A stretch of DNA of 33,474 nucleotides from Deltaproteobacteria bacterium (GTDB lineage: Bacteria > Desulfobacterota > Syntrophobacteria > BM002). Where the stretch lies: contig JAFDGZ010000031.1 in the NCBI GenBank assembly GCA_019309045.1, positions 1 to 33,474 on the forward strand. Direction: 5' to 3'. The notes beneath the pieces are model-generated. The model was not told the DNA's origin. It saw only the letters and a program-made list of their open reading frames with translations, and did not search any database. A program made the translations under genes and the position numbers. Of this stretch, positions 1 through 19,900 are shown piece by piece. Position 1 is the first letter of the stretch. The number at the start of each line of letters is the position of its first letter.

Positions 1-1172
1 TCAGTTTTTCTGAGGTGGCTGTCGGCTTCGACCAGGAGCAGGCTCACCAGGAGAGCCAGCGCTGCCTCAACTGCGGCGTCTGCTCCGAGTGCATGGAGTG
101 CGTCCGCGTCTGCGAACGAGATGCCGTCGACCATCGCATGAGCGAGCAGGAAGTGGAGATCAAAGTGGGCAGCATCATTCTGGCCACGGGTTTCGACGCC
201 CTAGACCCTGCTTCTATACAGCAGTACGGCTACAACCGCTATGCCAATGTGTATACTGCTCTCGAGTTCGAGAGAATGAACAATGCCGTGGGTCCCACAG
301 GCGGACGTATTTTGCTGGCCAATGGCGAGCCACCCGCCAGCGTCGGCATCATCCACTGCGTTGGCAGCCGGGACGTCAACTACCACGAGTACTGCTCCCG
401 CGTTTGCTGCATGTACGCCCTGAAGTACGGCCATCTCATCAAAGAAAAGGTGGGCCACGACACTAGAGTGTATAACTTCTACATTGACATGCGGTGTTTC
501 GGCAAAGGCTACGAGGAATTTTACCGCCGCTTGCAACACGAAGGCGTCATCTTCATTCGCGGCAAGCCAGCAGAGATAACAGATCAGCCGCAGAGCCTGG
601 AGGAGGAAGGCAAACTCATTGTAGTGACGGAAGACACCCTGCTGGGCAGAAGGTTGCGGCTGCCCGTAGATATGGTGGTTCTCTGCACTGCCATGGAACC
701 TGCCGAGGATGCAGCAGAAATGAGTCGAGTCTTTGGCGTCAGCCAGGGAAGTGATGGATTTTTCTTGGAGGAACACCCAAAGCTCGGGCCGGTGTCCACG
801 GCCAGCGACGGCATTTTCCTGGCAGGTACCTGCCAGGGGCCCAAGGATATTCCAGATACTGTCTCGCATGCAGCTGGGGCTGCGGCGCAGGCTCTTGCTC
901 TAGCCAGTCGAGGAAAGGTGGCGATCCCCTCCACTACCTCCTGGATCGATCCCGATGTGTGTGCCGGTTGCCAGAGCTGTATCCAGCTCTGTGCCTACTC
1001 TGCCATAGACTTCGACGAGCGCCGCCTGGTTTCCGTGATCAACGAGGCTCTCTGCAAAGGCTGCGGCAGTTGCGCTGCCTTCTGTCCGAGCGGGGCGGCA
1101 CGCATCAAACATTTTACAGGCAAACAGATATTCGCAGAAATAGAAGGTATTCTTGAAGAGGTAGGTTCCTGA
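1..1172 (+). CDS. HdrA-like flavin/Fe-S oxidoreductase subunit, 5'-truncated
   Basis: The reading frame is open to the left window edge (codons from position 3), so the start lies outside; a GTG at 15 is only an internal Val. The protein resembles subunit A of heterodisulfide reductase, the FAD subunit that bifurcates or confurcates electrons in cytoplasmic Hdr complexes. Visible parts, in order: a Cys-rich segment at nt 61-114 (RCLNCGVCSECMECVRVC), of the kind found before the flavin domain in GltD/HdrA hybrids; an ATGF flavin-domain strand; the HdrA cluster motif HCVGSRD followed by YCSRVCC (about nt 355-411); AGTCQGPKDIPD near the flavin-domain end; and a C-terminal 2[4Fe-4S] ferredoxin (nt 957-1110, CAGCQSCIQLC and [12 protein letters not shown]). 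It sits 19 bp upstream of mvhD, the usual HdrA partner. The N-terminal FAD-binding GxGxxG part is not in the window. Family certain; exact complex inferred. Confidence 0.9.
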   Translation, partial: SFSEVAVGFDQEQAHQESQRCLNCGVCSECMECVRVCERDAVDHRMSEQEVEIKVGSIILATGFDALDPASIQQYGYNRYANVYTALEFERMNNAVGPTGGRILLANGEPPASVGIIHCVGSRDVNYHEYCSRVCCMYALKYGHLIKEKVGHDTRVYNFYIDMRCFGKGYEEFYRRLQHEGVIFIRGKPAEITDQPQSLEEEGKLIVVTEDTLLGRRLRLPVDMVVLCTAMEPAEDAAEMSRVFGVSQGSDGFFLEEHPKLGPVSTASDGIFLAGTCQGPKDIPDTVSHAAGAAAQALALASRGKVAIPSTTSWIDPDVCAGCQSCIQLCAYSAIDFDERRLVSVINEALCKGCGSCAAFCPSGAARIKHFTGKQIFAEIEGILEEVGS

Positions 1173-1191
1173 CTGTTATTGGAGGGCAAAA

Positions 1192-1614
1192 ATGGCTGAT
1201 TTTGAGCCGACGATCATTGCTTTTGTCTGTAACTGGTGCACCTACACTGCTGCTGATCTGGCGGGTACCTCCAGACTGATTCAGCCTGCCAATGTGCGAA
1301 TGATTCGCATGATGTGCACGGGCATGGTGGATCCCAAATACATCATCAAAGCCCTTCTGGAAGGTGCAGACGGGGTGCTGATAAGCGGCTGCCATCCAGG
1401 GGACTGCCACTACATCAACGGCAATCTCAAGGCCCGCCGCCGGGTAAAATTGCTGAAAGAGATCCTGCCCAGATTTGGCTTTGACGAGGCCAGATTGAAA
1501 ATGACCTGGATAGGCGCCAGTGAAGGAATCGATTTTGCCGAAACCATGAAAGAACTGATGGCCGAAGTGAAAGCCCTGGGCCCCAACACTGTTCGCAAGC
1601 AGATGGTGCTGTAG
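1192..1614 (+). CDS. mvhD: MvhD/FlpD-like [2Fe-2S] electron-transfer subunit
   Basis: 140 residues, the usual length of the delta subunit of methyl-viologen-reducing hydrogenase (MvhD/FlpD). In methanogens this small [2Fe-2S] protein passes electrons from a hydrogenase or formate dehydrogenase to the FAD of HdrA. Expected cysteines are present: C13 and C16 (CNWC), C42 (MMCTGM), C67 and C72 (GCHPGDCHY). The position that is selenocysteine in some methanogen relatives is not recoded here. An SD-like GGAGGG lies just before the ATG. It sits between two hdrA-like genes in a tight same-strand run (19 bp after the first, 30 bp before the next gene), which supports a role as connector of an Hdr complex. 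No hydrogenase large subunit or formate dehydrogenase catalytic subunit is in the window, so the ultimate electron donor is not visible. Confidence 0.93.
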   Translation: MADFEPTIIAFVCNWCTYTAADLAGTSRLIQPANVRMIRMMCTGMVDPKYIIKALLEGADGVLISGCHPGDCHYINGNLKARRRVKLLKEILPRFGFDEARLKMTWIGASEGIDFAETMKELMAEVKALGPNTVRKQMVL

Positions 1615-1644
1615 GCACATCCCTGTTGCTGCTGGAGGAGAGTG

Positions 1645-2790
1645 ATGGCTGCAGTAAGCATAATTGAAGTGCAAGAAGGAAATCCGGTCATTTCGCTGCG
1701 ACAATTCTTCAAAGAACTACTCCGCCTGGACGAAGTGATCGGTCTGTTGGCGGCACAACACCTCCCTATGAAGAATGTGGTGATGCCCACCTTGATAACA
1801 GACCCTGAAAAGCTCGCGGGTGTCGATCCATTAGCGCCGGCGTTTCCCCTCAATGCAGCCAAGGTGGTGGCCAAACTCACCCGGAAGCCGTTAGGGGGAA
1901 AGATCCTGGCTGTGCTCAGGCCTTGTGAGATCCGCGCCTTTATCGAGCTGGTCAAGTTGAAGCAGGGTATGGTGACTGATGTGGTGCTGCTGGGTGTAGA
2001 CTGCCTCGGCGCCTACAGTAACATCCACTATCCTCAGTTTGCCGGTGGTGATGGCCCGGAGTCGACTCTGAGATTCTATCGAAACATCTGGAACAACAAG
2101 GGGACAGCCTGCAACGATTTTGATCTGTCGGCTGCCTGCAAGGCCTGTGAACATCCTGTGGCAGACAATGCCGATATTCTCATAGGTTTGCTGGGAATGA
2201 ACATTGAAGAACAGCTCCTGGTGCAGGGCAACACCGAAAAAGGTGCGGCTCTCCTGGCCCAGACGGGCATGCCGGCAGGCAGGGAGCCAGCTGAGAGAGA
2301 AGAGGCAGTGACAGCGCTGCTACAGAGCCGCTGCAATTATCGCGATCAGATGTATGCTGCCACCAGCGAGGCTACGGCTGATCTGGCCAAACTCACCAGC
2401 TATCTGGCCAACTGTGTCAACTGTTACAACTGCAGGGTTGCCTGCCCCGTCTGTTACTGCAAAGAATGTGTCTTTGTCACCGACGTCTTCGATCACGAAC
2501 CATGGCAATATCTTCGCTGGGCCAGCCGAAAAGGTGTGCTCAAACTGCCTACTGATACGGTCTTTTACCATCTAACCAGGCTGGCTCACATGAGTACTGC
2601 CTGTATCGGCTGCGGCCAGTGCTCCAATGCCTGTCCGAATAACATCCCGGTCATGGAGTTGTTCAGGACTATTGCCAGCTACACCCAGGCTGCCTTCGAT
2701 TGCGTGGCTGGCCGAAGTGTTGATGAACAGCCGCCTCTGTCGGTGTTTCGAGAGCATGAGTTTCCGGAAGTTACCGGCGGCAAAGAATAG
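1645..2790 (+). CDS. FrhB/FdhB-like flavin and iron-sulfur oxidoreductase
   Basis: 381 residues. The first 230 or so resemble the C-terminal domain of the F420 hydrogenase/formate dehydrogenase beta family (FrhB/FdhB), with the recognisable stretch LRPCEIRAFIELVKLKQ at about residues 91-107. The C-terminal part carries a dense cysteine cluster (CVNCYNCRVACPVCYCKEC) and a second motif, CIGCGQCSNACP, consistent with two [4Fe-4S] clusters. Family members carry FAD and move electrons between a hydride carrier and Fe-S partners. Nothing in the window indicates F420 synthesis, so the substrate may be a different carrier. ATG 1645 is chosen over GTG 1642 because the GGAGGAG at 1634-1640 is properly spaced only for the ATG. 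It lies 30 bp after mvhD and 53 bp before the next hdrA-like gene, so it is probably a subunit of the same complex. Confidence 0.85.
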   Translation: MAAVSIIEVQEGNPVISLRQFFKELLRLDEVIGLLAAQHLPMKNVVMPTLITDPEKLAGVDPLAPAFPLNAAKVVAKLTRKPLGGKILAVLRPCEIRAFIELVKLKQGMVTDVVLLGVDCLGAYSNIHYPQFAGGDGPESTLRFYRNIWNNKGTACNDFDLSAACKACEHPVADNADILIGLLGMNIEEQLLVQGNTEKGAALLAQTGMPAGREPAEREEAVTALLQSRCNYRDQMYAATSEATADLAKLTSYLANCVNCYNCRVACPVCYCKECVFVTDVFDHEPWQYLRWASRKGVLKLPTDTVFYHLTRLAHMSTACIGCGQCSNACPNNIPVMELFRTIASYTQAAFDCVAGRSVDEQPPLSVFREHEFPEVTGGKE

Positions 2791-2843
2791 GGCCGTCCTG
2801 CCTTGGAATCTGAGAGTCATCAGGAAGCGTGAGGTAAGCAAGC

Positions 2844-5800
2844 ATGAGGAAGAAAACAGGCTCGGCTCTGGTAGTAGGGGCGGGAATCAGCGGTATTCGA
2901 GCTGCCTTGGATCTGGCCGAATTTGGCTATCAAGTCATTCTCATAGACAGGACACCTCATCTTGGCGGAGTCCTGACGCAGCTGGACTATCAGTTTCCCA
3001 CTGATCACTGCGGCATGTGCAAGATGCTGCCGCTGGTGGAGCGAGATCATTCATCCCAGTACTGCCTGCGCAAGGGGCTTTTTCACGAAAATATCGACAT
3101 CCTGCTTTCCACGGAATTGGTGAATCTGGAGGGGGAACCCGGCAAGTTCCAGGCAACATTGCTGCAAAAAGCCAGCATGGTCGACCCCGAACGCTGCAAT
3201 GGCTGTGGGGAGTGTTCGCTTGTCTGTCCTGTGGAGGTGCCGGACGAATTCAATGCTGGTCTCAGCCTTAGAAAAGCAGTGTATTTGCCTGTACCCCACA
3301 ATATTCCCAATCACTACGTGGTTGACATGGCTTCCTGCACCATGTGCGGCGAGTGTGAGAAGGTGTGTGCCACAGGCGCCATTGATTTTGGCTGGGAGGC
3401 GCGGCGGCAGTTTCGTATTCTGGTGGTAGATGATGAACTCATCATTCGGGATTCCTTGAAAGAGTGGCTCGAGGAGGAAGGCTTCCGCGTGGACATGGCC
3501 GCCTCCGGGGCCGAGGCCCTGGAGCAGCTTGGCAGGGAATCCTATCAGCTGATGCTGCTGGACATCAAGATGCCCGGCATGGACGGGGTGGAGGTGCTGC
3601 AGCGCTCCAAAGAGGTGCGCCCTGAGCTGCCGGTGGTAATGATGACCGCCTATGCTACGGTAGAGACTGCTGTGGAGGCGATGAAAATTGGCGCTTACGA
3701 CTATTTGATGAAGCCTTTTGATCCAGAGACTCTTGTTCCCCTGGTAGTCAGGTTGTATGAGGGGCTCGAGCGCCGAGGCGAAAAGCAGCTGCAGGTGGGC
3801 GCAGTGATCCTGGCTGCCGGCTTTTGCTCGTACAATCCAGCTGCAGACAGGAATATCTATGGTTATGGTCTGCTGCCCAATGTGGTCACCAGCATGGAGT
3901 ACGAGCGAATGGTTAGCCGCACTGGACCGAGCAGCGGCAGGCTGCTGCGGCCAAGCGACGGCAAACAGATCCGCAGGATTGCCTGGCTGCAGTGCGTAGG
4001 CTCCAGGGACCGGCAGGGGGATGCTGATTATTGTTCGGCTGTATGCTGCATGATTTCCATAAAGGAGGCCTTGCTGGCAAAAGAGCGCAGCCAGGGAGAG
4101 GTGCACACCGCCATATTCTATATGGACATGCGAACCTTTGGCAAAAACCACCAGAGGTATCGCCACAGAGCGGAGCATGATTTCGGTGTGCAGTTTATCA
4201 GGAGTCGCGTGCACTCGGTATCGCCAGCCAGCCAGGAGGGCGATATTCTGGTTTCCTACACGGATGCGGCGGGAGTGAACAGAGAAGAACCCTTTGATCT
4301 GCTGGTGTTGGCAACCGGTCAGAGACCACCAGCAGGAGCGGCGGCTCTGGCTGAGATGACCAGTGTAGATCTCAATTCCTGGGGATTTTGCCAGGTGGAA
4401 GAATTCTTCCCGAGCCGCAGCAGCCGGGAGGGTGTCCTGGTGGCTGGCTCATTTTCTGGTCTGCGCGATATTTCCGAATCTGTGGTGCAGGCCAGTTCAG
4501 CAGCATGCGCAGCCTCACAGCTGCTCCACTCCAAAGGAGGAACCCTTGCTGCAGAAGTGAGGCTTCAGGATGACTATCGAGACGTCTCTCGGGAGCCTCC
4601 TCTGTTATACGTAGCCATCTGTACTTGTGGGGGCAAACTGCAAGAGGATACAGCTCTGCAAGAAATCGAAAAAATGCTTGCCTCTCGCCCTGGAGTGGTG
4701 GGGGTAGAGCGCATTCAACGGGTTTGCACCAAAGAGGGCTGGGCGCAGCTCGAAGATGCCCTGCGGCAAAGTGAGGCCAATCGGGTTGTTATCGGTGCCT
4801 GTATGCCTTATGTGTACACAGAGAGATTGCGCCAACTGGGCCAGCGTCTCGGCCTGCAGCCGGCACTTATGGATGTGGTGGATATTCACTCTGCAGCCCT
4901 GGCTTCTGGCGACGAGCAAGGCAGCCAGCAGGGAACTGCGGCGATCTGGTCGGCCCTGGCCATGGCTATGGGCAAGCTGCAGGGCATGGATCCTCTGCCG
5001 GCGACGCAAAAGAAAATCATCCAGAAGGCCCTGGTGGTGGGTGGCGGTATCGCTGGTATGACTGCAGCTCTTGCCATTGCTGACCACGGATTCGAGGTTG
5101 TGCTGGTGGAGCAGCAGGCAGAGCTGGGTGGTAATTTGCGCTGGCTTGCCCGCACGCTTGGCAGTAGTTCTCCCAGGGAGCTTCTGGAGGCAACAGTCAA
5201 GAGAGTCGAAGACCACCCGCACATTTCTCTTTTCAAAAAGGCCCGAGTTGTGCACTCGATCGGAAGTGTTGGACATTTTCTCACCACCATCGAGAAAGAA
5301 GACGGCCTTGGCGAGATCTGCAAGCATGGCGTCGCTGTATTGGCCAGCGGCGGTGAAGAGGCGAAAACCAAATCTTATTGCTTTGGGGAAAGTGAGAGCA
5401 TCGTCACCCAACTGCAGCTGGAGGAGGGGCTTGATAAGGGCAGCATTGATCCAAGAGAGCTCAAAGTGGTGGTAATGATCCAATGCGTTGATTCCCGTGA
5501 GGAGCCCCGAAATTATTGCAGCAGAGTCTGCTGCGGTTCAGCCTTGAAAAACAGTCTCTATCTTAAAAAGATTAACGAGGATATTACTGTCTATATCTTC
5601 TATCGGGACATGATGACCTACGGTTTCCGGGAGACTCAGTTCACAGAGGCCAGAGAAGCCGGGGTGCTGTTCATCCAGTACGATCTGCAGCAGAAGCCTG
5701 TGGTAACAGTGGCTGACGGCCGCCCAAGTGTGCGTGCCAGGGAACCTGTGCTGGACAGGCAGATAGTGATTCACCCAGATCTGCTGGTGCTCGGTACAGG

Positions 5801-6275
5801 TATTTCTCCTGGCAACAACGAGGAACTGGCAAGAATTTTTGGAGTAGACCTGGACGAAGATGGCTTCTTCCAGGAGGCGGAGTCCAAATGGAGGCCCGTT
5901 GATTTTCTCAAAGAGGGGATCTTCACCTGCGGCATTTCCCTTGGGCCGCGTGACATTGCGGAGTCCATCGCTTCTGCCGAGGCAGCGGCGCAACGGGCCT
6001 TAAGGATCCTCGGCAGGGATTGTCTGCTCGCCGGAACAGTAGTGGCAGAGGTACACCACTCTCTGTGCGCCCTCTGCGAGAGGTGCATACAGGCATGCCC
6101 ATACGGGGCCAGGTGGCGGGACGAGGAGGAAGAAAAGGTAGTGGTGGACGAGCTCATGTGCCAGGGATGCGGCTCCTGTGCAACAGTATGCCCAAACAGC
6201 GCCTCGGTAGTGCGCAGCTACAGAGATCAACAGGTGTTTTCCATGATTGATGCTGCGCTGGATGAGATTTTCTAG
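2844..6275 (+). CDS. Double HdrA-like subunit with embedded response-regulator receiver domain
   Basis: 1143 residues, an unusually long HdrA. Order: FAD-binding VVGAGISG (about 9-16); DHCGMC (C56, C59) after the flavin fold; ferredoxin insert (CNGCGECSLVCP and CTMCGECEKVC, about 115-178); a complete receiver domain at about 190-312, with acidic pair D196/D197, phospho-acceptor D240 (LLDIKMPGMDG), T268 and K290 (MKPFD); the rest of the flavin domain with QCVGSRD and YCSAVCC; a degenerate HdrA N-terminal-type domain (ICTCGG); a second FAD domain (VVGGGIAGM, about 731 on) with QCVDSRE and YCSRVCCG; and a C-terminal 2[4Fe-4S] ferredoxin. The reading frame is continuous, so the receiver is a true insertion and not a separate gene. 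Start: GAGG at 2831-2834, nine bases before the ATG. HdrA is the flavin subunit of cytoplasmic electron-bifurcating complexes; control by phosphorylation is inferred. No histidine kinase gene lies in the window. Confidence 0.92.
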   Translation: MRKKTGSALVVGAGISGIRAALDLAEFGYQVILIDRTPHLGGVLTQLDYQFPTDHCGMCKMLPLVERDHSSQYCLRKGLFHENIDILLSTELVNLEGEPGKFQATLLQKASMVDPERCNGCGECSLVCPVEVPDEFNAGLSLRKAVYLPVPHNIPNHYVVDMASCTMCGECEKVCATGAIDFGWEARRQFRILVVDDELIIRDSLKEWLEEEGFRVDMAASGAEALEQLGRESYQLMLLDIKMPGMDGVEVLQRSKEVRPELPVVMMTAYATVETAVEAMKIGAYDYLMKPFDPETLVPLVVRLYEGLERRGEKQLQVGAVILAAGFCSYNPAADRNIYGYGLLPNVVTSMEYERMVSRTGPSSGRLLRPSDGKQIRRIAWLQCVGSRDRQGDADYCSAVCCMISIKEALLAKERSQGEVHTAIFYMDMRTFGKNHQRYRHRAEHDFGVQFIRSRVHSVSPASQEGDILVSYTDAAGVNREEPFDLLVLATGQRPPAGAAALAEMTSVDLNSWGFCQVEEFFPSRSSREGVLVAGSFSGLRDISESVVQASSAACAASQLLHSKGGTLAAEVRLQDDYRDVSREPPLLYVAICTCGGKLQEDTALQEIEKMLASRPGVVGVERIQRVCTKEGWAQLEDALRQSEANRVVIGACMPYVYTERLRQLGQRLGLQPALMDVVDIHSAALASGDEQGSQQGTAAIWSALAMAMGKLQGMDPLPATQKKIIQKALVVGGGIAGMTAALAIADHGFEVVLVEQQAELGGNLRWLARTLGSSSPRELLEATVKRVEDHPHISLFKKARVVHSIGSVGHFLTTIEKEDGLGEICKHGVAVLASGGEEAKTKSYCFGESESIVTQLQLEEGLDKGSIDPRELKVVVMIQCVDSREEPRNYCSRVCCGSALKNSLYLKKINEDITVYIFYRDMMTYGFRETQFTEAREAGVLFIQYDLQQKPVVTVADGRPSVRAREPVLDRQIVIHPDLLVLGTGISPGNNEELARIFGVDLDEDGFFQEAESKWRPVDFLKEGIFTCGISLGPRDIAESIASAEAAAQRALRILGRDCLLAGTVVAEVHHSLCALCERCIQACPYGARWRDEEEEKVVVDELMCQGCGSCATVCPNSASVVRSYRDQQVFSMIDAALDEIF
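3411..3779 (+). other. Receiver (REC) domain inserted inside the HdrA-like gene
   Basis: This segment encodes about 123 residues of CheY-like fold between the ferredoxin insert (ending GAIDFGWEARRQ) and the strand that normally follows it directly in HdrA (LQVGAVILAAGF). All phosphorylation residues are kept: acidic pair D196/D197, D240 as phospho-acceptor, T268 and K290. No DNA-binding or enzymatic output domain is attached other than HdrA itself. Confidence 0.9.
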
Positions 6276-6351
6276 ACCCTGAGGACCGCAGATGCCCTGC
6301 TTGCCGCCGAGACCATAGAAGCAAACAGTAAAGCAAAACAGTGGAGGTCGT

Positions 6352-6921
6352 ATGACTGAACAGCAAACATCCCAGGGCCGCATACCTCTGGCGAAAGAAT
6401 CAATTGCCAGCGTTCGAGAGCTCCTCAAAGAATGTATGCAATGCGGAACTTGCACTGGTTCGTGCGCAAACAGCTACGCTATGGACATCACTCCGCGGAA
6501 GCTGTGGCGGCTCGTTCAGCTGGGCTTTCAGGAAGAGATTTTTGCCAGCAGGACCTTTTCCCTCTGCAGCAGCTGCTACTATTGCACCCTGCGATGCCCG
6601 AGAGGCTTGCCCTTGACAGAAACGATTCATGCGCTCAAGCGGCTTGCTGCTGCCCAGGGATTCGTTGCCGACAAGAAAGGTCCGCGCTTCTACCGCTCGT
6701 TTCTCGGTACTGTTCGTCGCTACGGCAGGGTGCGGGAGATGGAGCTCATGGGACGCTATTTCCTGAGCATGAAAAACCCCTTGCTGCCGCTGGCATTTGC
6801 TCCTCTTGGCGTCAAGCTGATGCTCAAAGGCAAAGTAGCACCTGAAATCCCCAGGATATTCGGCCCTGGCAAGCTGGAAGCCATATACCGCAAAGTGGAG
6901 GAACTGGAGTCAGGCTCATGA
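6352..6921 (+). CDS. hdrC: HdrC-like 2[4Fe-4S] subunit
   Basis: 189 residues, typical for soluble HdrC. Two canonical CxxCxxCxxxC motifs are present at C28/C31/C34/C38 (CMQCGTCTGSC) and C72/C75/C78/C82 (CSSCYYCTLRCP), each expected to hold a [4Fe-4S] cluster. HdrC relays electrons from HdrA to the catalytic HdrB. The C-terminal hundred residues are basic and helical without membrane segments, so this is a soluble subunit, unlike the membrane-fused HdrC of the second module. GGAGGT at 6343-6348 is the ribosome site, spaced only three bases from the ATG. The stop codon overlaps the hdrB start (ATGA), which indicates translational coupling. The 76-bp gap after the preceding hdrA-like gene shows no obvious terminator, so it is probably in the same operon. 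Confidence 0.94.
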   Translation: MTEQQTSQGRIPLAKESIASVRELLKECMQCGTCTGSCANSYAMDITPRKLWRLVQLGFQEEIFASRTFSLCSSCYYCTLRCPRGLPLTETIHALKRLAAAQGFVADKKGPRFYRSFLGTVRRYGRVREMELMGRYFLSMKNPLLPLAFAPLGVKLMLKGKVAPEIPRIFGPGKLEAIYRKVEELESGS

Positions 6922-7787
6922 AATACTTTTATTATCCCGGTTGTTCTCTGCAGGGTACGGCCATGGAATACCACATTGCCACCAAAGCGATAATGGCTGC
7001 CCTGGTTGTGGATTTGCACGAAATCGATGACTGGACCTGCTGCGGCGCCAGTGCAGCAGAGGCGGTGAACTCTCTGCTGTCGCTCGCCCTGCCGGCACGG
7101 AACCTGGCTCTGGCCGAACTAGCAGATTCTCACTGTGACGTGGTAATTCCCTGCAGCGCCTGCTTTCTGAACCTGAAGAGAGTGGAGGTGAAGATTCGTG
7201 AAGATGCTGGACTCCTGGGGAGATTGAACGAGGTACTCGAGGTGGAGGGCCTCAGCTACTCGGGCAGCCTAAAATCCCGGCACCTCCTGGATGTGCTTGC
7301 CCATGACCTGGGTGCCGATATGATTGCTTCCCATCTCAAAAGAGACCTGGCTTCACTGCAAGTCGCCCCCTATTATGGCTGCCAGTGTCTGCGTCCCTAT
7401 GGTGATTACGACGACCCTGAACAGCCACACTCCATGGAGCTGCTCATCAGAGCTCTGGGTGCTGCCGTGTTTCCCTGGACCGTGGCGGCAAAATGTTGTG
7501 GTGCTGGTCTGATGACCACTAAAAAGGAAGTGGCCCTTGAACTGACCGGAGCAATCCTGGCTGCTGCCAGAGGAGCAGACTGCATCGTGACGGTCTGCCC
7601 CATGTGCCAGATGAATCTGGAGAGTGCTCAGAGAAAGATTTCCCGCCTGCGAGGTGAGAAGTTGTCCATACCTGTGCTCTATCTGCCGCAGCTCATCGGT
7701 GTTGCCCTGGGATTGTCCGCAGAAGCTCTCAAGCTGCAAGCCAACATGATTCCTGCTCGCTCCCTGCTGACAAAGGTGGCTGGGTAG
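6918..7787 (+). CDS. hdrB: HdrB-like subunit with two CCG domains
   Basis: 289 residues, the usual HdrB length. It has two CCG (cysteine-rich) repeats: first, YPGCSLQG, WTCCGAS and CSAC; second, YYGCQC, KCCGAG and CPMC. In methanogen HdrB these cysteines hold two non-cubane [4Fe-4S] clusters that reduce a heterodisulfide. In bacteria the natural disulfide or other substrate of this family is usually unknown, so only the cluster chemistry can be transferred. The ATG overlaps the hdrC stop by four bases. This is the last gene of the first Hdr module and is followed by a 544-bp gap. Confidence 0.94.
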   Translation: MKYFYYPGCSLQGTAMEYHIATKAIMAALVVDLHEIDDWTCCGASAAEAVNSLLSLALPARNLALAELADSHCDVVIPCSACFLNLKRVEVKIREDAGLLGRLNEVLEVEGLSYSGSLKSRHLLDVLAHDLGADMIASHLKRDLASLQVAPYYGCQCLRPYGDYDDPEQPHSMELLIRALGAAVFPWTVAAKCCGAGLMTTKKEVALELTGAILAAARGADCIVTVCPMCQMNLESAQRKISRLRGEKLSIPVLYLPQLIGVALGLSAEALKLQANMIPARSLLTKVAG

Positions 7788-7897
7788 GGTAATAGTCGTT
7801 GTCGCAGCTAACCTGTACTTTCCCTGGAGGCAGATTGAAAGACAAGGCATCCAAATGAAAGAATAGCAGTCTAAGCCAGCAGATTGATGAAATATTC

Positions 7898-7926
7898 TTA
7901 CCGTGGAAACATTTTTGTGCTATATT
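7898..7926 (+). promoter_or_regulatory. Candidate sigma70-type promoter with extended -10
   Basis: TTACCG (7898-7903) is followed by 17 bases and then TATATT (7921-7926), with TG one base upstream of the -10 (TGC-TATATT), an extended -10 arrangement. The -35 is weak. If used, it gives a leader of nearly 400 bases ahead of the membrane Hdr module. Judged by eye only. Confidence 0.35.
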
Positions 7927-8150
7927 GGCAACATTCCATATGAGGGCTGGCTTTCTGCAAAGAGTCTGCTTGCGGGGTTGCTTTCCGAAACTGGTGTTGA
8001 TGGCTAACTGAGTTACCCGGCATCTGCTTTTCCTGCGGTTCGTCTCGTGTCCGATTCCCTCTCGGTTCTTCATTTGCAAACTATCAGGGCGAATTAAGCC
8101 AAGGGCCCACGATGGTTACAAAGTAGATTTTCATTTGCCGGTGTGTTGTC

Positions 8151-8186
8151 TGCCTCTGGTAGTTTTTCCCTGCGGGGAGAGAGGCA
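8151..8186 (+). promoter_or_regulatory. Possible stem-loop in the leader of the membrane Hdr module
   Basis: A 7-bp stem, TGCCTCT (8151-8157) with AGAGGCA (8180-8186), encloses an inner TCCC (8167-8170)/GGGA (8175-8178) stem with loop TGCG. A flanking GGGCC (8103-8107)/GGCCC (8195-8199) pairing could close a larger structure. No U-tract follows, so it is not a standard terminator. Function unknown. Confidence 0.3.
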
Positions 8187-8236
8187 AGCCTCATGGCCCC
8201 AGATGGTAGGATCTAGCCGTCCAGGTGTTATTGTTG

Positions 8237-8267
8237 TTGAAAACACTGCTTTTGCTACCTGTATGAT
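8237..8267 (+). promoter_or_regulatory. Candidate sigma70-type promoter for the membrane Hdr module
   Basis: TTGAAA (8237-8242) and TATGAT (8262-8267) each match the consensus at five of six positions, but the spacer of 19 bases is longer than ideal. Transcription would begin near 8274, about 58 bases before the ATG at 8332. This is the better placed of the two promoter candidates in this gap. Confidence 0.4.
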
Positions 8268-8331
8268 GCAGGGGCGCGTTCAATGGGCTTTCTCCTGTTA
8301 GAAAGCCACAAGTCAATTGGGGAAGAGGAAG

Positions 8332-10101
8332 ATGTTTTTCTCCGCTACTCTGTATTGTGCCCTCCTTGTTTTTGCACTAGGTACAGCTTATAAAATTTCG
8401 ATCTGGTTTCGCGCCGCAATTCCTGGAGATAGAAGAGCAATTCCCGCTTCTAGCAGGCTGTCAGCTGCAGTCAGAGGGATCGTCTCCACCCTGGGCAGTG
8501 CGAAAATCGTGACGCTGTTCAGGGTTTTTTTTGTAGACGTCCTCCTGCAGATAAGGCTGCTTCGGCAGGACTTTCTCAGGTGGTTCATGCACATTTGTAT
8601 CTATGGCGGTTTCATGCTGCTCCTGCTGATGCATGCCCTGGATAAATTCATTACGCAGCCGCTTTTTCCTGGATATTTCCCAACTCTTAACCCCTTCATG
8701 TTCTTGAGAGATCTTTTCGGTGCTCTGGTCCTGCTGGGTATTATTATAGCGGTCTACCGGCGCTATATCTTGAAGGTTCCGAGTCTGCGGAGCCGCGGGC
8801 AGGATCACTATGCTATCCTGATCCTGACAGTGATCATCTTGTCAGGCGTGTTGTTGGAAAGTAGCAAGATTACCTCTTACTCTAGATTCAAAGAAATGGT
8901 CAGTGAGTACACGGTGGCCGCCGATGAAGAAGAACTCAGGACACTGGAGGCCTACTGGGTAAAGGAGCTCGGTCTGGTCTCACCGCAACTATCTGGGCCT
9001 TTCGATGCGGCAACCCTGGAGATGGGCAAAGAAGCTCACGAGATGAACTGCGCTGAATGCCATTCACGGCCGCAGTCCGCTTTTCTCAGCTACGCTTTGT
9101 CCAGGGCTATCAAGCCCATAGCCCTGACTCTGGATCGGGTCAACATTCTTGCCATTTTCTGGTATATTCACTTTCTTGCCTGCTGGCTGGGCCTTGCCTA
9201 TTTGCCCTTCAGCAAGATGTTTCACATATTTGCCGGTCCCCTGAGTCTTCTTGCCAACGCCGTCATGGAAGAGGGGAAATCACTGCCTGCCAATGTGGCC
9301 ACCAGGGAAGTAATGGAACTGGATGCTTGTACCCACTGCTGCAGTTGCAGTGTGAGCTGCTCCATGAGCGCGGCCTTTGCAAGCATCGGCAATGTGAATA
9401 TTTTGCCGTCGGAGAAGTTAGCCGCAGTCAAGGCCTTTATAACTGGCAACAATATGACGGAGCAGCAACTGAGGCTGCTTCGCCAGGGGCTCTACCTGTG
9501 CACCAGTTGCAATCGCTGCACTGAGGCATGCCCAGTGAGCATACACCTTCAGGATCTGTGGCTGCACCTGAGGGAAAACCTTCTGCAACGAGGAGAGCCA
9601 GAACTGCTTGCCCTGACGCCCTTTTCTTACACTCGCGGCCTGGGGAGGCAAGAGCTGCTTGCAGAAGATTACCTGGCACCATTGACGGCAGCCAGGGAGG
9701 CTATTATAGAGAAATGGGGGGAGGTGGCAGGGCCGGACAGGGTTCCAGGCCTAAAGCCTCTCGACCAGGAATTCAAGAGCAGTCTCGATTTATCCACGCA
9801 GGCGAGCACATTCTCCGCCTGCTTCAACTGCCAGACCTGCACCACAGTGTGCCCGGTGGTGGCCAGTTTCGAGCACCCTCAGGAGGAACTAGGTCTGTTG
9901 CCGCATCAGATTATGCATGCCTGTGCACTTGGCCAGCGCGACTTGGCCCTGGGCTCCTATATGCTATGGGATTGTCTTAGCTGCTACCAGTGTGAGGAGC
10001 AGTGCCCGCAGGGAGTGTGTCTCACTGAGGTGTTCTATGAATTAAAGAGTCTAGCCATAAAGCAGTTTGCCGAAAAAATTTCCCAAAAAGAGGGAAGATG
10101 A
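8332..10101 (+). CDS. QmoC/HdrE-like membrane cytochrome b with heme c motif, fused to two HdrC modules
   Basis: 589 residues. The N-terminal third is a NarI-like membrane domain with about five hydrophobic segments. Two histidine pairs fit bis-His heme b sites: one pair 14 residues apart in the second helix (MHICIYGG and MHAL), the other 18 apart in the fifth (IHFLACW and MFHIF), the latter spacing as in NarI. Between helices four and five, a roughly 90-residue loop carries CAECH (C240, C243, H244), a c-type heme site; NarI topology puts it in the periplasm. The cytoplasmic tail has four CxxCxxCxxxC motifs, starting at C333, C390, C497 and C548, that is, two tandem HdrC-like modules. Start: ATG 8332 follows a purine-rich GGAAGAGG; a TTG at 8317 is less likely. 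The stop overlaps the next gene (ATGA). Likely role: quinone or cytochrome-linked electron transfer to HdrB. Membrane partner identity is inferred. Confidence 0.88.
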   Translation: MFFSATLYCALLVFALGTAYKISIWFRAAIPGDRRAIPASSRLSAAVRGIVSTLGSAKIVTLFRVFFVDVLLQIRLLRQDFLRWFMHICIYGGFMLLLLMHALDKFITQPLFPGYFPTLNPFMFLRDLFGALVLLGIIIAVYRRYILKVPSLRSRGQDHYAILILTVIILSGVLLESSKITSYSRFKEMVSEYTVAADEEELRTLEAYWVKELGLVSPQLSGPFDAATLEMGKEAHEMNCAECHSRPQSAFLSYALSRAIKPIALTLDRVNILAIFWYIHFLACWLGLAYLPFSKMFHIFAGPLSLLANAVMEEGKSLPANVATREVMELDACTHCCSCSVSCSMSAAFASIGNVNILPSEKLAAVKAFITGNNMTEQQLRLLRQGLYLCTSCNRCTEACPVSIHLQDLWLHLRENLLQRGEPELLALTPFSYTRGLGRQELLAEDYLAPLTAAREAIIEKWGEVAGPDRVPGLKPLDQEFKSSLDLSTQASTFSACFNCQTCTTVCPVVASFEHPQEELGLLPHQIMHACALGQRDLALGSYMLWDCLSCYQCEEQCPQGVCLTEVFYELKSLAIKQFAEKISQKEGR

Positions 10102-11003
10102 CCGTGAAATATGCGCTCTATCTTGGCTGTCAGATTCCGGCTCGTCTCAGCCAGTACGAATACTCCGCCCGAGCAGTATTGCGGAAACTAACAGTAGAAC
10201 TGGTGGACATAAAAGAGTTCAACTGCTGCGGTTATCCGCTGAGAAGCTTCGATTTTCGCACATTCGTCTTTTCTGCCGCCAGGAACCTGGCTCTCGCTGC
10301 CAGGGCAGAATTGGACATGATAGTTCTCTGCAAATGTTGCTTCGGCAGCCTCAAGAAAGTGGAGCACCTGTTGCATCAAGATTCTGCCTGGCGGGATGAT
10401 ATCAATGGCCTTCTCAGCAAAGAAGGGCTGCGGTACACAGGAGATATTGAGGTCCGTCATCTCCTTTCTGTGCTTTACCACCAGGTGGGCCTGGAAGCCA
10501 TAAAGGACAAAATAGAAAAGCCGTTCCATGCTCTGAAAATTGCAGCCCATTACGGCTGCCACGCCCTGCGGCCGAGCAGGATTGTCCAGTTCGACGACCC
10601 ACTGGCCCCCTCCATATTTGATCAACTGGTAGAGGCAACCGGAGCAGAGAGCATCTCCTGGGCGGCACAACTGGAGTGCTGTGGCGCGCCCCTGGGCGGC
10701 GTAAACGACGAACTATCTATGAGCCTTACCGAGAAGAAGCTTACAGACGCCCAAAGATCTGGAGCAGAATACCTTTGCACTGCCTGCTCCTACTGCCAGC
10801 TCCAGTTCGATGTTGTCCAGGGCATTATGGTGGACAGGCAGGGGAAAGACCACGGGCTTGCTGCCATTCTCTACCCTCAGCTCCTTGGTCTGAGCCTGGG
10901 TATCCCCAGGGATGCCCTGGGGTTTGCTCTGCACAGGCTGCCCGCAGACGACATAGAGAAGTACCTGGCAGCGGAACCTCAGGGAGAAGCAGCGGAGGCG
11001 TGA
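10098..11003 (+). CDS. hdrB: HdrB-like subunit of the membrane-linked module
   Basis: 301 residues with two CCG domains: LGCQIPAR, NCCGYP and CKCC in the first half; YGCHALRP, ECCGAP and CSYC in the second. These are the ligands of the paired non-cubane [4Fe-4S] clusters of HdrB. It is clearly a paralogue of the hdrB at 6918-7787, sharing the layout but differing in most of the sequence. Its ATG overlaps the stop of the cytochrome/HdrC fusion by four bases, and the Sec-HdrA gene follows after 91 bp. The trio therefore has the composition of a membrane Hdr/Qmo-type complex. The physiological substrate cannot be read from sequence. Confidence 0.92.
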   Translation: MTVKYALYLGCQIPARLSQYEYSARAVLRKLTVELVDIKEFNCCGYPLRSFDFRTFVFSAARNLALAARAELDMIVLCKCCFGSLKKVEHLLHQDSAWRDDINGLLSKEGLRYTGDIEVRHLLSVLYHQVGLEAIKDKIEKPFHALKIAAHYGCHALRPSRIVQFDDPLAPSIFDQLVEATGAESISWAAQLECCGAPLGGVNDELSMSLTEKKLTDAQRSGAEYLCTACSYCQLQFDVVQGIMVDRQGKDHGLAAILYPQLLGLSLGIPRDALGFALHRLPADDIEKYLAAEPQGEAAEA

Positions 11004-11094: not shown

Positions 11095-14000
11095 ATGACC
11101 GGGGCGGTGATGGTGGTGGGAGGCGGCATCGCCGGCATGCAGACATCTTTGGACCTGGCCGATTCCGGCTACTATGTCTATCTGGTGGAGAGATCAGCTT
11201 CCATAGGTGGTCTCATGTCCCAGTTGGACAAGACATTTCCCACCAACGACTGTGCCATGTGAATCATCTCCCCCAAACTGGTCGAGGTCGGCCGGCATCT
11301 GAACATTGAACTCCTGACTCTTTGCGAAATAGAGGATATCTTCGGGGAGGCTGGGGATTTTACGGTCAGGCTCAGACAGCATCCTCGCTATGTTGATATG
11401 AACAAATGCATTGCCTGCGGCACCTGTGCGGAAAAATGCCCCCGCAAGGTAGCCAATGAGTACAATGCGGCGCTCGACAAACGCAAAGCAATCTACGTGC
11501 AATACGCCCAGGCAGTGCCGCTCAAATACACTATTGACGCTGAGCACTGCATCTATTTCGAGAAAGGCAAGTGCAAAGCCTGTGAGAAATTCTGTCCCAC
11601 CGGCGCCATTGATTTTGCTGATCAGGAAAAAGAATTGAGCCTCAAAGTGGGGGCCGTTGTCATTGCCCCCGGGGCAAATGTGTACGACCCTGCCGTCTAC
11701 GATGTCTATGGCTACAAAAGATTTGCCAATGTGGTAACCAGCTTGGAGTTTGAACGCATGCTGTCCGCCACCGGCCCCTATGGCGGGCACCTGCTGAGGC
11801 CTGCTGACGGCAAAGAACCGGAGAAAATCGGTTGGCTCCAGTGTGTCGGCTCCCGTGACATTCATCCGGGGACCAATCCGTATTGTTCTGGTGTGTGCTG
11901 TACCTACGCCATCAAGGAGGCCATTGTTGCCAAGGAGCACCTCCGGAATTTGGCTGCTACTGTCTTCTATATTGATATACGCACCCATGGCAAGGATTTT
12001 GAGAAATACTACAACCGGGCCAAAGAGATGGGGGTTCGCTTTGTCAGAGCAAGAATCGGCAAAGTGCGGCCAGCAGATGCAAAAGGCAATCTGCGCCTCT
12101 GCTACACCAACGAGGCCGGTGCCCGGATCGAGGAGGATTTTGATCTGCTGGTGCTTTCTGTGGGGCTCCAGCCAGCGGTCCGGACAAAGCATCTGGCCAG
12201 TACCTTGGACATTCTGCTTGATCAGTATGGTTTTGTCGAAACGCCCACCTTCAAGCCAGTGAGTACATCGAGAGGCGGGATTTACATATGTGGTACTGCC
12301 AATGGTCCCAAAGACATCCCGGACGCAGTGATGGAGGCAAGTGCTGCAGCCTGTGCTGCTTCCTGCAGTCTGGCAAAAGTTCGGGGCACTCTGGCGCGCG
12401 AGAAACCCACCGTGCCATTGCAAGAGGTTTCTTCTGAGAAGCCGCGGATCGGTGTGTTTGTCTGTAACTGCGGTGTCAATATTGGCGGAGTGGTGCGTGT
12501 TCCCGAAGTTGTTGATTATGCCAAGAACCTGCCCAATGTGGCATATGCCGAGGAAAACCTTTTTTCTTGTTCCCAGGATGTGCAGGAGGCCATACGGCAG
12601 GTAATCATTGCAGAAAGACTGAACAGAATCGTGGTGGCAGCTTGCTCGCCGCGCACTCACGAACCACTATTCAGGGAGACCTTAGAATCTGCTGGCCTCA
12701 GCAAGTATTTATTTGAGATGGCCAACATCCGCAACCAGGACTCGTGGGTACACCAGAATGACCCGGATGCCGCCACCTTGAAAGCCAAGGACCTGGTACG
12801 CATGGCAGTAGCCAAGGCTGCGCTTCTTGCTCCGCTTGAGGAACAACACTTTCCCATTACCCAGACAGCATTGGTGGTTGGAGGAGGTCTGGCGGGCATG
12901 CAGGCCGCCCTCAGCATTGCCGACAGCGGCTTTGCTGTCCATCTGGTGGAAAAAACAGCACAACTGGGCGGCCAGGCTAACCACATCCAGTGGAACTGGA
13001 AGGGGCAAGATGTGCAAGCATTCCGGACGTTGTTAGAGGAGAAGATTCGTCAACATCCTCTCATCAACATACATCTTGGCACAGAAATAGATTATGTGAA
13101 CGGCTTTGTGGGCAATTTCCGCTCCACTCTCAGAAAGACAGGAAGCGGCAGGCAGGCCATTACAGTGGAGCACGGCGTCATAGTGCTTGCTACCGGGGCA
13201 AGACCTTACAAGCCTGAAGAGCATCTATATGGCAAACACCCGCACGTTTTCATCTGGCATGAACTGGATGAACTGGTGGTGCGCCAAGATCCAACTGTGG
13301 CTGAGGCGCGTTGCGGCGTCTTCATTCAATGTGTTGGCTCCAGGAACCAAGAACGTCCATATTGCAGCCGTATCTGCTGCAGCTACAGCCTGACGGCAGC
13401 GCTCAAAATCAAGAAAATAAATCCCAGGGTGAATCTTTACATCCTTTACAGAGATATCCGCACCTACGGTCTCAGGGAAGATCTTTATGCCAAGGCCCGC
13501 TCCCAGGGGATAATGTTCATCCGCTATGATTCCCAGAACCCGCCCAAGGTGACGGTGGGAGAGGATGGGGCTCTGGAGATCACGGTTGTGGATCAGGTGC
13601 TGCGGCGGTTGGTCAAGTTGCAGCCCGACTTCATCAATCTGGCCAGCGCAATTGTTCCTTCTGCAGTGGACGAGTTGGCCCGGATACTGAAAGTAGCAGT
13701 CAACCAGGAAGGCTTTTTCCAGGAAGCACACGTAAAATTGAGACCGGTTGATTTTGCTACAGACGGCATTTTTGTATGCGGTCTAGCTCACTATCCGAAA
13801 GACGTGGACGAGTCTCTTACGCAGGCTATGGCGGCGGCGAGTCGTGCCGTGGCCGTGCTGGCAAAAAAACAATGGGTGAGCAGCGGTCAGGTGGCCCGGA
13901 TTGATGAAACAACCTGTGTTGGCTGCCAGGGATGTGCCCAGGTGTGCCCCTACGGGGCTGTAGAGTATGTGGAAAGAGAGCGCATCTGCCAGGTCAATGT

Positions 14001-14118
14001 GGCCTTGTGCAAGGGCTGCGGCAGTTGCGCCGCAGCCTGTCCCTCAGGCAGTGCCCGCTTGCTCGGCTTCGAACGCCAGCAATTGCACGCCCAAATCACT
14101 GCCTTCATGCAAGCGTGA
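11095..14118 (+). CDS. hdrA: Selenocysteine-containing double HdrA-like subunit
   Basis: Read through an in-frame TGA (11260-11262, residue 56), this is a 1007-residue protein. Without recoding, a gene caller would start at ATG 11398 and lose the N-terminal FAD motif (VVGGGIAGM, residues 7-15). The sequence before the TGA ends in FPTNDCAM and continues [12 protein letters not shown], exactly where HdrA has a conserved Cys. Order after that: ferredoxin insert (about 100-180), QCVGSRD and YCSGVCC, an HdrA N-terminal-type domain ([10 protein letters not shown]), a second FAD domain (from about 592) with QCVGSRN and YCSRICC, and a C-terminal 2[4Fe-4S] ferredoxin (from C941). AAGGAGA at 11081-11087 is well spaced for ATG 11095. 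HdrA selenoproteins are known from methanococci and some anaerobic bacteria. It is probably the FAD subunit of the module encoded just upstream. Confidence 0.9.
11260..11295 (+). promoter_or_regulatory. Selenocysteine UGA codon with SECIS-like hairpin
   Basis: The UGA is at 11260-11262. Fifteen bases later CUGGUC (11278-11283) can pair with GGCCGG (11290-11295), giving six pairs including two G-U pairs, around the loop GAGGUC (11284-11289). Bacterial SECIS elements are short hairpins shortly downstream of the UGA with a GGU-type apical loop that SelB binds; this one has GGU in the loop and plausible spacing. Folding was judged by eye, without an energy calculation. Confidence 0.75.
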
Positions 14119-16997: not shown

Positions 16998-19900
16998 ATG
17001 CAGGCACCCCCAATGAGAAAACCCTTTTCGACAAAATTTTTTGAAATGGTGCGAGGGAACCTGATCTCGCGGGTTTTCGGCTTCCTGCGCGAGGTGGTGG
17101 TGGCCTTCTACTTCGGGGCCAGCCGGGCCACGGACGTTTTTGCTATAGCTTTCACCATTCCCACTCTTTTCCGGCGAATCCTTGGCGAGGACATGGTGGA
17201 GAAGGCCTTTCTGCCTTCCTTCCGGCAGCTAGTGGCGGCGGGTCACTTTCGACGGGCCTGGCTTCTGGCAAGACGGACATTTTTCCTGATGGTGGGCTGT
17301 CTCCTCCTTCTCATGGCTCTCTGCTACCTTTTTGCTCCCAATCTGGTAGGGGTGATTGGCGCTGGTCTGGATGTAGAGGGATTTGAACAGGCGAAGCAGA
17401 TGACCTACTATGTGCTGCCATTCATGCTGGTGATAGGCTTGGCAGCGTTCACGGGGGGGCTGCTGCTCTTTCTGGATGCAACAGGGGTCTATGCCTTCGC
17501 CCCTGTGTTTCTCAGCGTTGGCGTCATCCTCGGCATTGTTGTCTTCAAGCCATTTATGGGGATGTACAGTATTGCCCTGGGTTTTGTGCTCGGCGCTCTC
17601 CTGCAGTTGTTTTTCCAGGTACCTTTTCTGGTCCGAGCAGCTCGCCGCAACTGTCTGCATATAGAGTCTGTGCTTCGACCTGAAGGGGAATCCCTGCCCG
17701 AGCTCCGGGAAGTGGGCCGACAATCGGGCTGGATTTTTCTGCAGTCTCTGGCCAGCAAGACAGTGGAAGTGGTTGATCGTCTGCTGGCCTCCTTTCTGGT
17801 TCCTGGCAGTGTGGCGGCTCTTTATTTTGCTCAGAGGCTGGTGCAGGTACCCAACGCGGTGCTCGGTCTCTCTGTAGGCAGAGCCGGCGTCACCGACCTG
17901 AATGATCAGGTACAAAAGGAAGACTGGCAAGGTTTTCGCTGCACCGTGGTCAAGGCAATTCGTTACAACATCAGCACCATGCTGCCAGTGACAGTCTTCA
18001 TTGTTTCTCTTTCGGCGCCCATAACTGCCATCATTTTTCAGCGCGGTGCCTTTGGCAGCAGTTCTGTGCAGCTCACATCACTGGCATTTGCCTTGTACGG
18101 TTTGGGGCTTCTCGGCATGAGCATCTGGAGTCTCTATACCAGGATTTTCCCGGCACTGGCCAGAAATGAGATTCCCCTCTATACTTCACTGCTCTGTGCT
18201 TTGCTGAATGTGGCGCTGAGCCTGCTGCTGGTTCACACACCACTCAAACATGGGGGCCTGGCCCTGGCCTCCTCTATTGCCTTCACGGTCAATGCGCTGC
18301 TCCTCTTCTTGGCGCTCAATGGTGAACTGCGCAAGCGGGGTCAGAGGGCAGTGGGCTGGCAGGACCTGCGTGAGACGGTATTGTCAATTGCTCTGGCCAG
18401 CGCCATGGGCGGGTTGATCGCCTGGGGCGCCTATGGACAGCTGCACAGTACGGCAACCCTGGCCCGAATGCCCGTCCTGTTGTTTCACTGGGGAGAGGTC
18501 ATTGCTCTGGGTGCAGCTCTTGGCGCCGGAGGCCTGGCTTTTCTCTGCTGTCTTGGCTACTGGGGTTCGTTTCATCATACAGGCGGTCTGCTGCCGGAGC
18601 GGGTCATCCTCACTGGCGGCGGCACTGGGGGGCATGTGAATCCGGCACTGGCCATAGCTGAAAGCATCAAAGAACAGAGTCCAGCGGCAGAATTTCTTTA
18701 TGTGGGAGTTCAGGGGAGGGCTGAGTCAGTTATTGTTACCAGGGCCGGTTATCCCATTCGCTATGTGCGGGCCCTGCCTTTTCCTGGACTGCGACCTTCT
18801 TGGTCTCTTGTTCGCTTCGTGCTGGCACTGCTGCAGGGAGTTGTCCATTCTTTCTGGCTCATAGCAACGTTTCGGCCCAATCTCATCATTGGCACTGGCG
18901 GTTATGCCAGCGCGCCTCTCATTCTAGCCAATACTTTCATGCGTGCTGTTGGCATGAGCCGGGCTCGCGTCATTATCCACGAACAAAACAGCGTGCCCGG
19001 CAAACTGAACCATCTCATAGGCCGTCGGGCTGACCAGGTGCTGCTGACTTTCCCGCAGACCAAGCACTATTTCCCTAGAAACAGTGCGGTCGTCGGCTAT
19101 CCAGTGCGGCGCTCTGTTACTGACAAGGCGGGTTCTGTGAACAAAGAGAAACTCCCCTTTGCCGTGCCTGCTGGCAGGCGGGTGGTCTTTGTGTTCGGCG
19201 GTTCCCAGGGTGCTCGGGCCATCAATAGGGCGGTGGTGGATGCCCTGGGGCACCTGGGCCAGCGCAAGCAGGAGATCTTCATCATCCATGGGGTGGGGCT
19301 CATGAATGGGCCCCAATATTATGCCTGGGAAGACACCAGCGAACGACTGCACCGCACCTACGATGAAGCACAGAGACAGGAAATTGCTTCCTATTACTAT
19401 GCTCAGGACTATTTTCACAACATCGGCGATATTTATGCCATCAGTGATCTGGTGGTCTGCCGTGGCGGTGCGGGCAGTCTCAACGAAATATCAGCCATGG
19501 GAAAACCGGCCCTCATCATCCCCAAGGCCAATTTGCCTGGAGATCACCAGGTGATGAATGCCAGGGCCATGAGCAAGGCTGGGGCAGCAGAGATCATTTA
19601 CGAAGATACAGTCATTGAGGAGGGTGCTCTGCTCGAGAGGGTGGACGGCAAGGAACTTGCTGCACGAATATTGTCCCTGTTGGACGCGCCTGAACGTCTC
19701 GAACGGATGGCCGCCTGTTCGCGCAACTTCATGAAACAGGACGCCCTGCAACGGATCATGTCAGAAATATACCATGGCAATCAGCAGGAGCAGCCCTCCG
19801 GTGAAGAGCCCACCGAGTGGGAGCCTCCTTTGCTGGGAAATGAGCAGCTGCTGGCCCGCCTGCAACAGGTAAGGCAGCAGCTGCCTGAGCGCTACCATCC

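Follow-up and report, generated by a model that had tools for sequence, protein, structure and literature searches.

To our knowledge, little is known of how anaerobes tune electron bifurcation to a changing redox supply. The locus described here raises the question of whether an HdrA subunit can carry its own two-component switch. It lies at the start of the window (the whole stretch of DNA analysed, a 33,474-nucleotide contig, C31, from a deltaproteobacterial genome), where a continuous open reading frame encodes RR-HdrA, a double HdrA with two FAD modules and an inserted receiver domain. Genes for HdrB and HdrC partners accompany it, as they do in most of the long related loci (Table 1).

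A receiver domain within a double HdrA subunit

RR-HdrA matches the methanogen HdrA of structure 5odc (phmmer E=2.8e-91). Residues 5-185 align with 143-313 and residues 316-557 with 319-561, and about 130 residues of RR-HdrA occupy what is a connector of about 5 residues in 5odc. An AlphaFold model, calculated with 53 homologues as input (mean pLDDT 86, pTM 0.85), matches HdrA structures (8rvu_a, TMt 0.94, E 1.9e-40 with Foldseek). The Fe-S cysteine ligand motifs are invariant in 53/53 aligned homologues. The protein scores 679.5 and 542 bits with the NCBIfam models for methanogen HdrA and HdrA2, below their cut-offs of 1100 and 1400 bits. By its sequence, RR-HdrA is a relative of HdrA and not a CoB-CoM enzyme.

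Table 1. Features of the operon and of the RR-HdrA gene (window coordinates)
Feature	Position	Strand	Remarks
HdrL, C-terminal part (HdrA with GltD/NfnB-like insert)	15..1172	+	Cut by contig start; N-terminal part ends contig C14 (L205:10135-11166)
MvhD-like Fe-S electron-input subunit	1192..1614	+	NF045873, 136.9 bits, below its cut-off
FrhB/FdhB-like 4Fe-4S protein, 382 aa	1642..2790	+	Profile matches
RR-HdrA, whole gene	2844..6275	+	Double HdrA with inserted receiver, 1143 aa
First FAD module, N-terminal part	2856..3173	+	GAGISG motif; Cys59 equivalent to HdrA Cys197
Inserted ferredoxin domain	3174..3407	+	Two CxxCxxCxxxC motifs (C118/121/124/128, C165/168/171/175), invariant in 53/53
CheY/NtrC-type receiver, aa 190-312	3411..3779	+	D196/D197 3429-3434; D240 3561-3563; T268 3645-3647; K290 3711-3713
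First FAD (TrxR-like) module, return	3780..4523	+	C384/C397/C401/C402
Region with conserved Cys 593/628/653	4524..5003	+	Resembles HdrA N-terminal Fe-S domain of second module; identity inferred from Cys pattern
Second FAD module (GGGIAG) and C-terminal two-cluster ferredoxin domain	5004..6272	+	Profile matches, alignment
HdrC-like	6352..6921	+	TIGR03290
HdrB-like, two CCG domains	6918..7787	+	Profile matches

The receiver is recognised by Pfam PF00072 (Response_reg) at residues 192-298 (E=3.7e-33), scoring 114.5 bits where the cut-off is 30.2, and FAD and 4Fe-4S domain matches surround it. In the model it forms a full (βα)5 fold whose catalytic residues are placed as is normal for receivers, with D240 at the end of strand 3, T268 at the end of strand 4 and K290 after strand 5. 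The initial annotation had proposed a complete receiver at about residues 190-312, with D196/D197, D240, T268 and K290 all present and an unbroken reading frame across both borders, and both points hold. Its description of the domain as inserted in the flavin domain can be made more precise: the receiver follows the inserted two-cluster ferredoxin domain and precedes the point where the chain returns to the FAD domain.

These five residues (DDDTK) are invariant in 47/47 aligned canonical full-length homologues. In a separate set of 25 sequences from a search of 60 genomes, D196, D197, D240 and T268 are invariant and K290 is present in all 24 sequences that reach its position. The junctions are equally rigid: exactly 15 residues separate C175 from receiver strand 1, and exactly 27 separate K290 from V318, in 53/53 aligned homologues. 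Because the same junctions recur in independent genomes with linkers of fixed length, a sequencing or assembly error at 3411 or 3779, raised initially as a possible cause of the fusion, is ruled out.

Both parent kinds of architecture are familiar. Methanogen HdrA of the HdrABC complex (5odc, 7bkb, 8rvu) shares with RR-HdrA the TrxR-like FAD fold, the inserted and C-terminal ferredoxin domains, the cysteine motifs and the HdrB/HdrC partners; RR-HdrA differs in having two modules per chain and a receiver of about 122 residues in the connector. Double or remodelled HdrA proteins of ANME archaea and Moorella (HdrA3/4; HdrA9-11) have two fused modules with a complementary N-terminal domain and Cys197 (PMC9012536). 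RR-HdrA shows a comparable pattern, in which the Cys197 equivalent belongs to the first module and N-terminal-like cysteine motifs precede the second. In HdrA9-11 a whole domain (NfnB) is inserted in the ferredoxin region (PMC9012536); the insert of RR-HdrA is a signalling receiver rather than a redox module, and the order of modules differs. The receiver itself is close to the AtoC/NtrC type, with DDDTK and Y287 in common, but it lies within a redox enzyme and lacks the DNA-binding and AAA outputs of NtrC-family response regulators. Receivers coupled to enzymatic outputs are already known.

A literature search on HdrA with a receiver, CheY or two-component control, with most subscription journals outside its reach, found no description of a receiver inside HdrA, and the initial annotation likewise knew of no characterised example. 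A viral structure search with the model returned generic receiver and flavoprotein matches only. One related locus that has been described is hdrL/hdrA4/hdrCB of Desulfobacterium autotrophicum HRM2, which has similar gene types (HdrL, FdhB-like, HdrA4, HdrC, HdrB) and regulators in the figure legend; it was compared by description only, and the parts of that description available mention no receiver within HdrA (PMC2702500).

Distribution and origin of the fusion

A pattern scan of 84,980 species genomes found the fusion at 80 further loci, all apparently in Desulfobacterota; the short patterns derive from the source lineage, so that insertions of greater divergence may have escaped the scan elsewhere. 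Named carriers include Desulfospira joergensenii DSM 10085, Desulfosarcina alkanivorans PL12 and Desulfoferrobacter suflitae DRH4, and sulfate reducers make up most of the group that carries the fusion. The fusion occurs in 25 of the 60 genomes searched, the source genome included, among them 10 of 12 other members of the source family; in an even sample of the phylum, 15 of 395 genomes match it.

Loss of the catalytic Asp or Lys in homologues had been named initially as the mark of a decayed domain. None of the 47 aligned canonical homologues in the main group shows such a loss. The Desulfovibrionales, in contrast, have lost the acidic pair (an intact DD in 0/6 aligned) and often T268, while keeping D240, and a single MAG contig, L052, carries D240G, the only such case among canonical homologues. 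Decay is accordingly accepted for the Desulfovibrionales and rejected for the main clade, where DDDTK conservation refutes it. Identical junctions in independent assemblies, those of the D. joergensenii, D. alkanivorans and D. suflitae strains included, lead to rejection of an assembly or annotation artefact. The probability that artefact or decay explains the fusion is negligible. Since the Desulfovibrionales retain the fusion without the acidic pair, phosphorylation does not appear essential everywhere. In one single-contig genome (G004), RR-HdrA is broken within the receiver and its remainder lies about 650 kb away (L033 and L138), through either rearrangement or misassembly.

Orthologous operons without a receiver, sought with the FrhB-like neighbour as marker, occur in three families. 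In a tree built from the non-receiver parts by a quick search without bootstrap, all fused genes form one clade (SH-aLRT 99) in which the Desulfovibrionales are nested, with the receiver-less orthologues outside; one long-branched receiver-less row, L186, adjoins the fused clade. The tree supports a single insertion of the receiver into an older operon; multiple independent insertions find no support in it. Stand-alone receivers with DDDTK lie downstream in five Desulfovibrionales clusters (L104, L105, L107, L108 and L110). In the receiver-less operons of one family, HdrC is followed by stand-alone receivers and a kinase, so the signalling link seems to predate the fusion.

Kinases encoded beside the operon

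The initial annotation saw no kinase nearby. This is most probably an effect of the contig edge: the window begins inside HdrL, which leaves the kinase out of view. When the source genome was searched with the HdrL of a related locus (L044), contig C14 proved to end with a match to residues 1-343 (84% identity), and the window contig to begin with one to residues 741-1125 (80% identity). The C14 genes directly upstream of HdrL, which share its strand and follow the gene order of L044 and L045, encode a 778-residue kinase with heme-type motifs, a protein of REC-PAS-HATPase architecture, a universal stress protein and a stand-alone receiver. From this synteny we infer that C14 and C31 join into one operon, the gap between them hiding about 1.2 kb of HdrL. 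The membrane kinase of this genome has two c-heme-type motifs in a predicted Cache-like periplasmic domain.

Among the 40 named loci flanked by 5 kb or more on both sides, 37 encode a histidine kinase, although these loci are mutually related and do not amount to 40 independent tests; at 19 of the 40 a kinase lies in a co-directional downstream run. The genomic background is 54 HATPase_c matches in the 3.9 Mb of the source genome. The kinase of 18 named loci is predicted to have a membrane helix on each side of a domain with CxxCH and Cx3-4CH. The Cys and His of the heme-type motifs are invariant in the aligned kinase sets, with CXXCH invariant in A4/A5. The sensor model is Cache-like, its best solved matches including WalK and the heme sensor GSU0935, and the linked kinase gave no match to PF11845 (DUF3365/Tll0287) at E<=0.01. 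Sensors of the sCache_heme/DUF3365 type share the periplasmic Cache-like fold and CXXCH (PMC12889525), whereas the linked kinase has two heme-type motifs. The linked sensor kinases probably carry heme.

The sensor family was rejected as an operon-specific marker, being present in 124 of 395 genomes of the phylum; most of its top-scoring copies adjoin RR-HdrA. A kinase with heme motifs also adjoins a receiver-less orthologous operon, and kinase types beside RR-HdrA vary between lineages. By their neighbourhood, the operon kinases are candidate partners of the RR-HdrA receiver. NtrC regulators, found in several RR-HdrA clusters, are possible alternative targets. Next to one RR-HdrA operon (L191:12695-14017) is a gene for a USP-REC-USP protein.

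Two other readings concern the signalling proteins of these clusters. The fused receiver could be a sink for phosphate, or a competitor for it, through which the other response regulators of the operon are tuned while the enzyme is left unaffected. Several receivers do occur per cluster, such as the REC-PAS-kinase and the stand-alone REC of the source genome, but nothing about a sink calls for a place inside an enzyme core, with linkers of constant length, and this role is very improbable. Information might instead flow in reverse, the redox state of the HdrA clusters or FAD modulating receiver phosphorylation and so reporting redox load to the kinases and sigma-54 regulators. Clustering with stand-alone receivers, hybrid kinases and NtrC regulators would suit this, as would a reported Fe-S-binding receiver that feeds back on its two-component system (PMC7078487). 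The conserved anatomy, however, fits control of enzyme output equally well, and reverse flow seems quite unlikely.

A possible route from signalling to electron flow

There is, in our judgement, about an even chance that phosphorylation of the receiver gates the ferredoxin (low-potential) branch of a probably electron-bifurcating HdrL-MvhD-FrhB-RR.HdrA-HdrC-HdrB complex, which makes this the likeliest of the readings considered. RR-HdrA would be the FAD subunit of this putatively bifurcating cytoplasmic complex. The operon kinases, here the membrane kinase with heme-type motifs and the REC-PAS-kinase, would phosphorylate D240, with a resulting β4-α4/β5-α5 rearrangement involving T268 and Y287. 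This could move the ferredoxin domain with respect to FAD, or open or cover the face at which ferredoxin docks, and low-potential electron output would then track the redox or ligand state of the periplasm. For Hdr complexes of solved structure, low-potential electrons are anticipated to exit through the inserted ferredoxin domain, and movements of the HdrA mobile arm have been interpreted as conformational gating (PMC12350162). Short linkers of fixed length at this expected exit make the receiver well placed for gating. The initial proposal that two-component control acts on a bifurcating complex is strengthened, and so partly supported, by the site-exact conservation, the supported single insertion and the adjacent kinases; the phosphotransfer, the gating and the reaction of the enzyme are proposed steps.

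The receiver might instead govern assembly or location, its phosphorylated form or simply its fold docking RR-HdrA onto a partner, which could be HdrL, a membrane kinase or an external ferredoxin. The inserted ferredoxin domain of solved HdrA is a docking site for polyferredoxins (PMC12350162), and persistence of the fusion after loss of the acidic pair in Desulfovibrionales fits a retained binding role. A purely structural role, however, leaves unexplained both the strict DDDTK conservation of the main clade and the linkage to kinases. Docking is an unlikely explanation, if one to be taken seriously.

The gating hypothesis can be extended to a more specific and rather tentative proposal, in which a transmembrane kinase with a periplasmic sensor of multi-heme type reads the state of electron carriers in the periplasm, phosphorylates the RR-HdrA receiver and so directly sets low-potential output in the cytoplasm without transcription. 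If this is so, electron bifurcation would be under fast two-component control independent of transcription, and the built-in receiver with its linked kinases would constitute a direct switch from signalling to energy metabolism. Cultured carriers (D. joergensenii, D. alkanivorans and D. suflitae) make the idea testable, with receiver-less orthologues and the decayed Desulfovibrionales receivers as natural controls.

Scans for promoters and terminators over 1100-8500 gave results near the shuffled background and were set aside. Downstream, at 8317-11003, an HdrD-like protein that weakly matches nitrate-reductase-gamma is encoded, followed by a second HdrB-like gene. An HdrA paralogue at 11095-14118 has an in-frame TGA (11260-11262, NDCAMUIISPK) at the position equivalent to Cys197 and is a probable selenoprotein. 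Further on, 16998-20630 is a single open reading frame of 1210 residues that matches MurJ, MurG and HEAT repeats.
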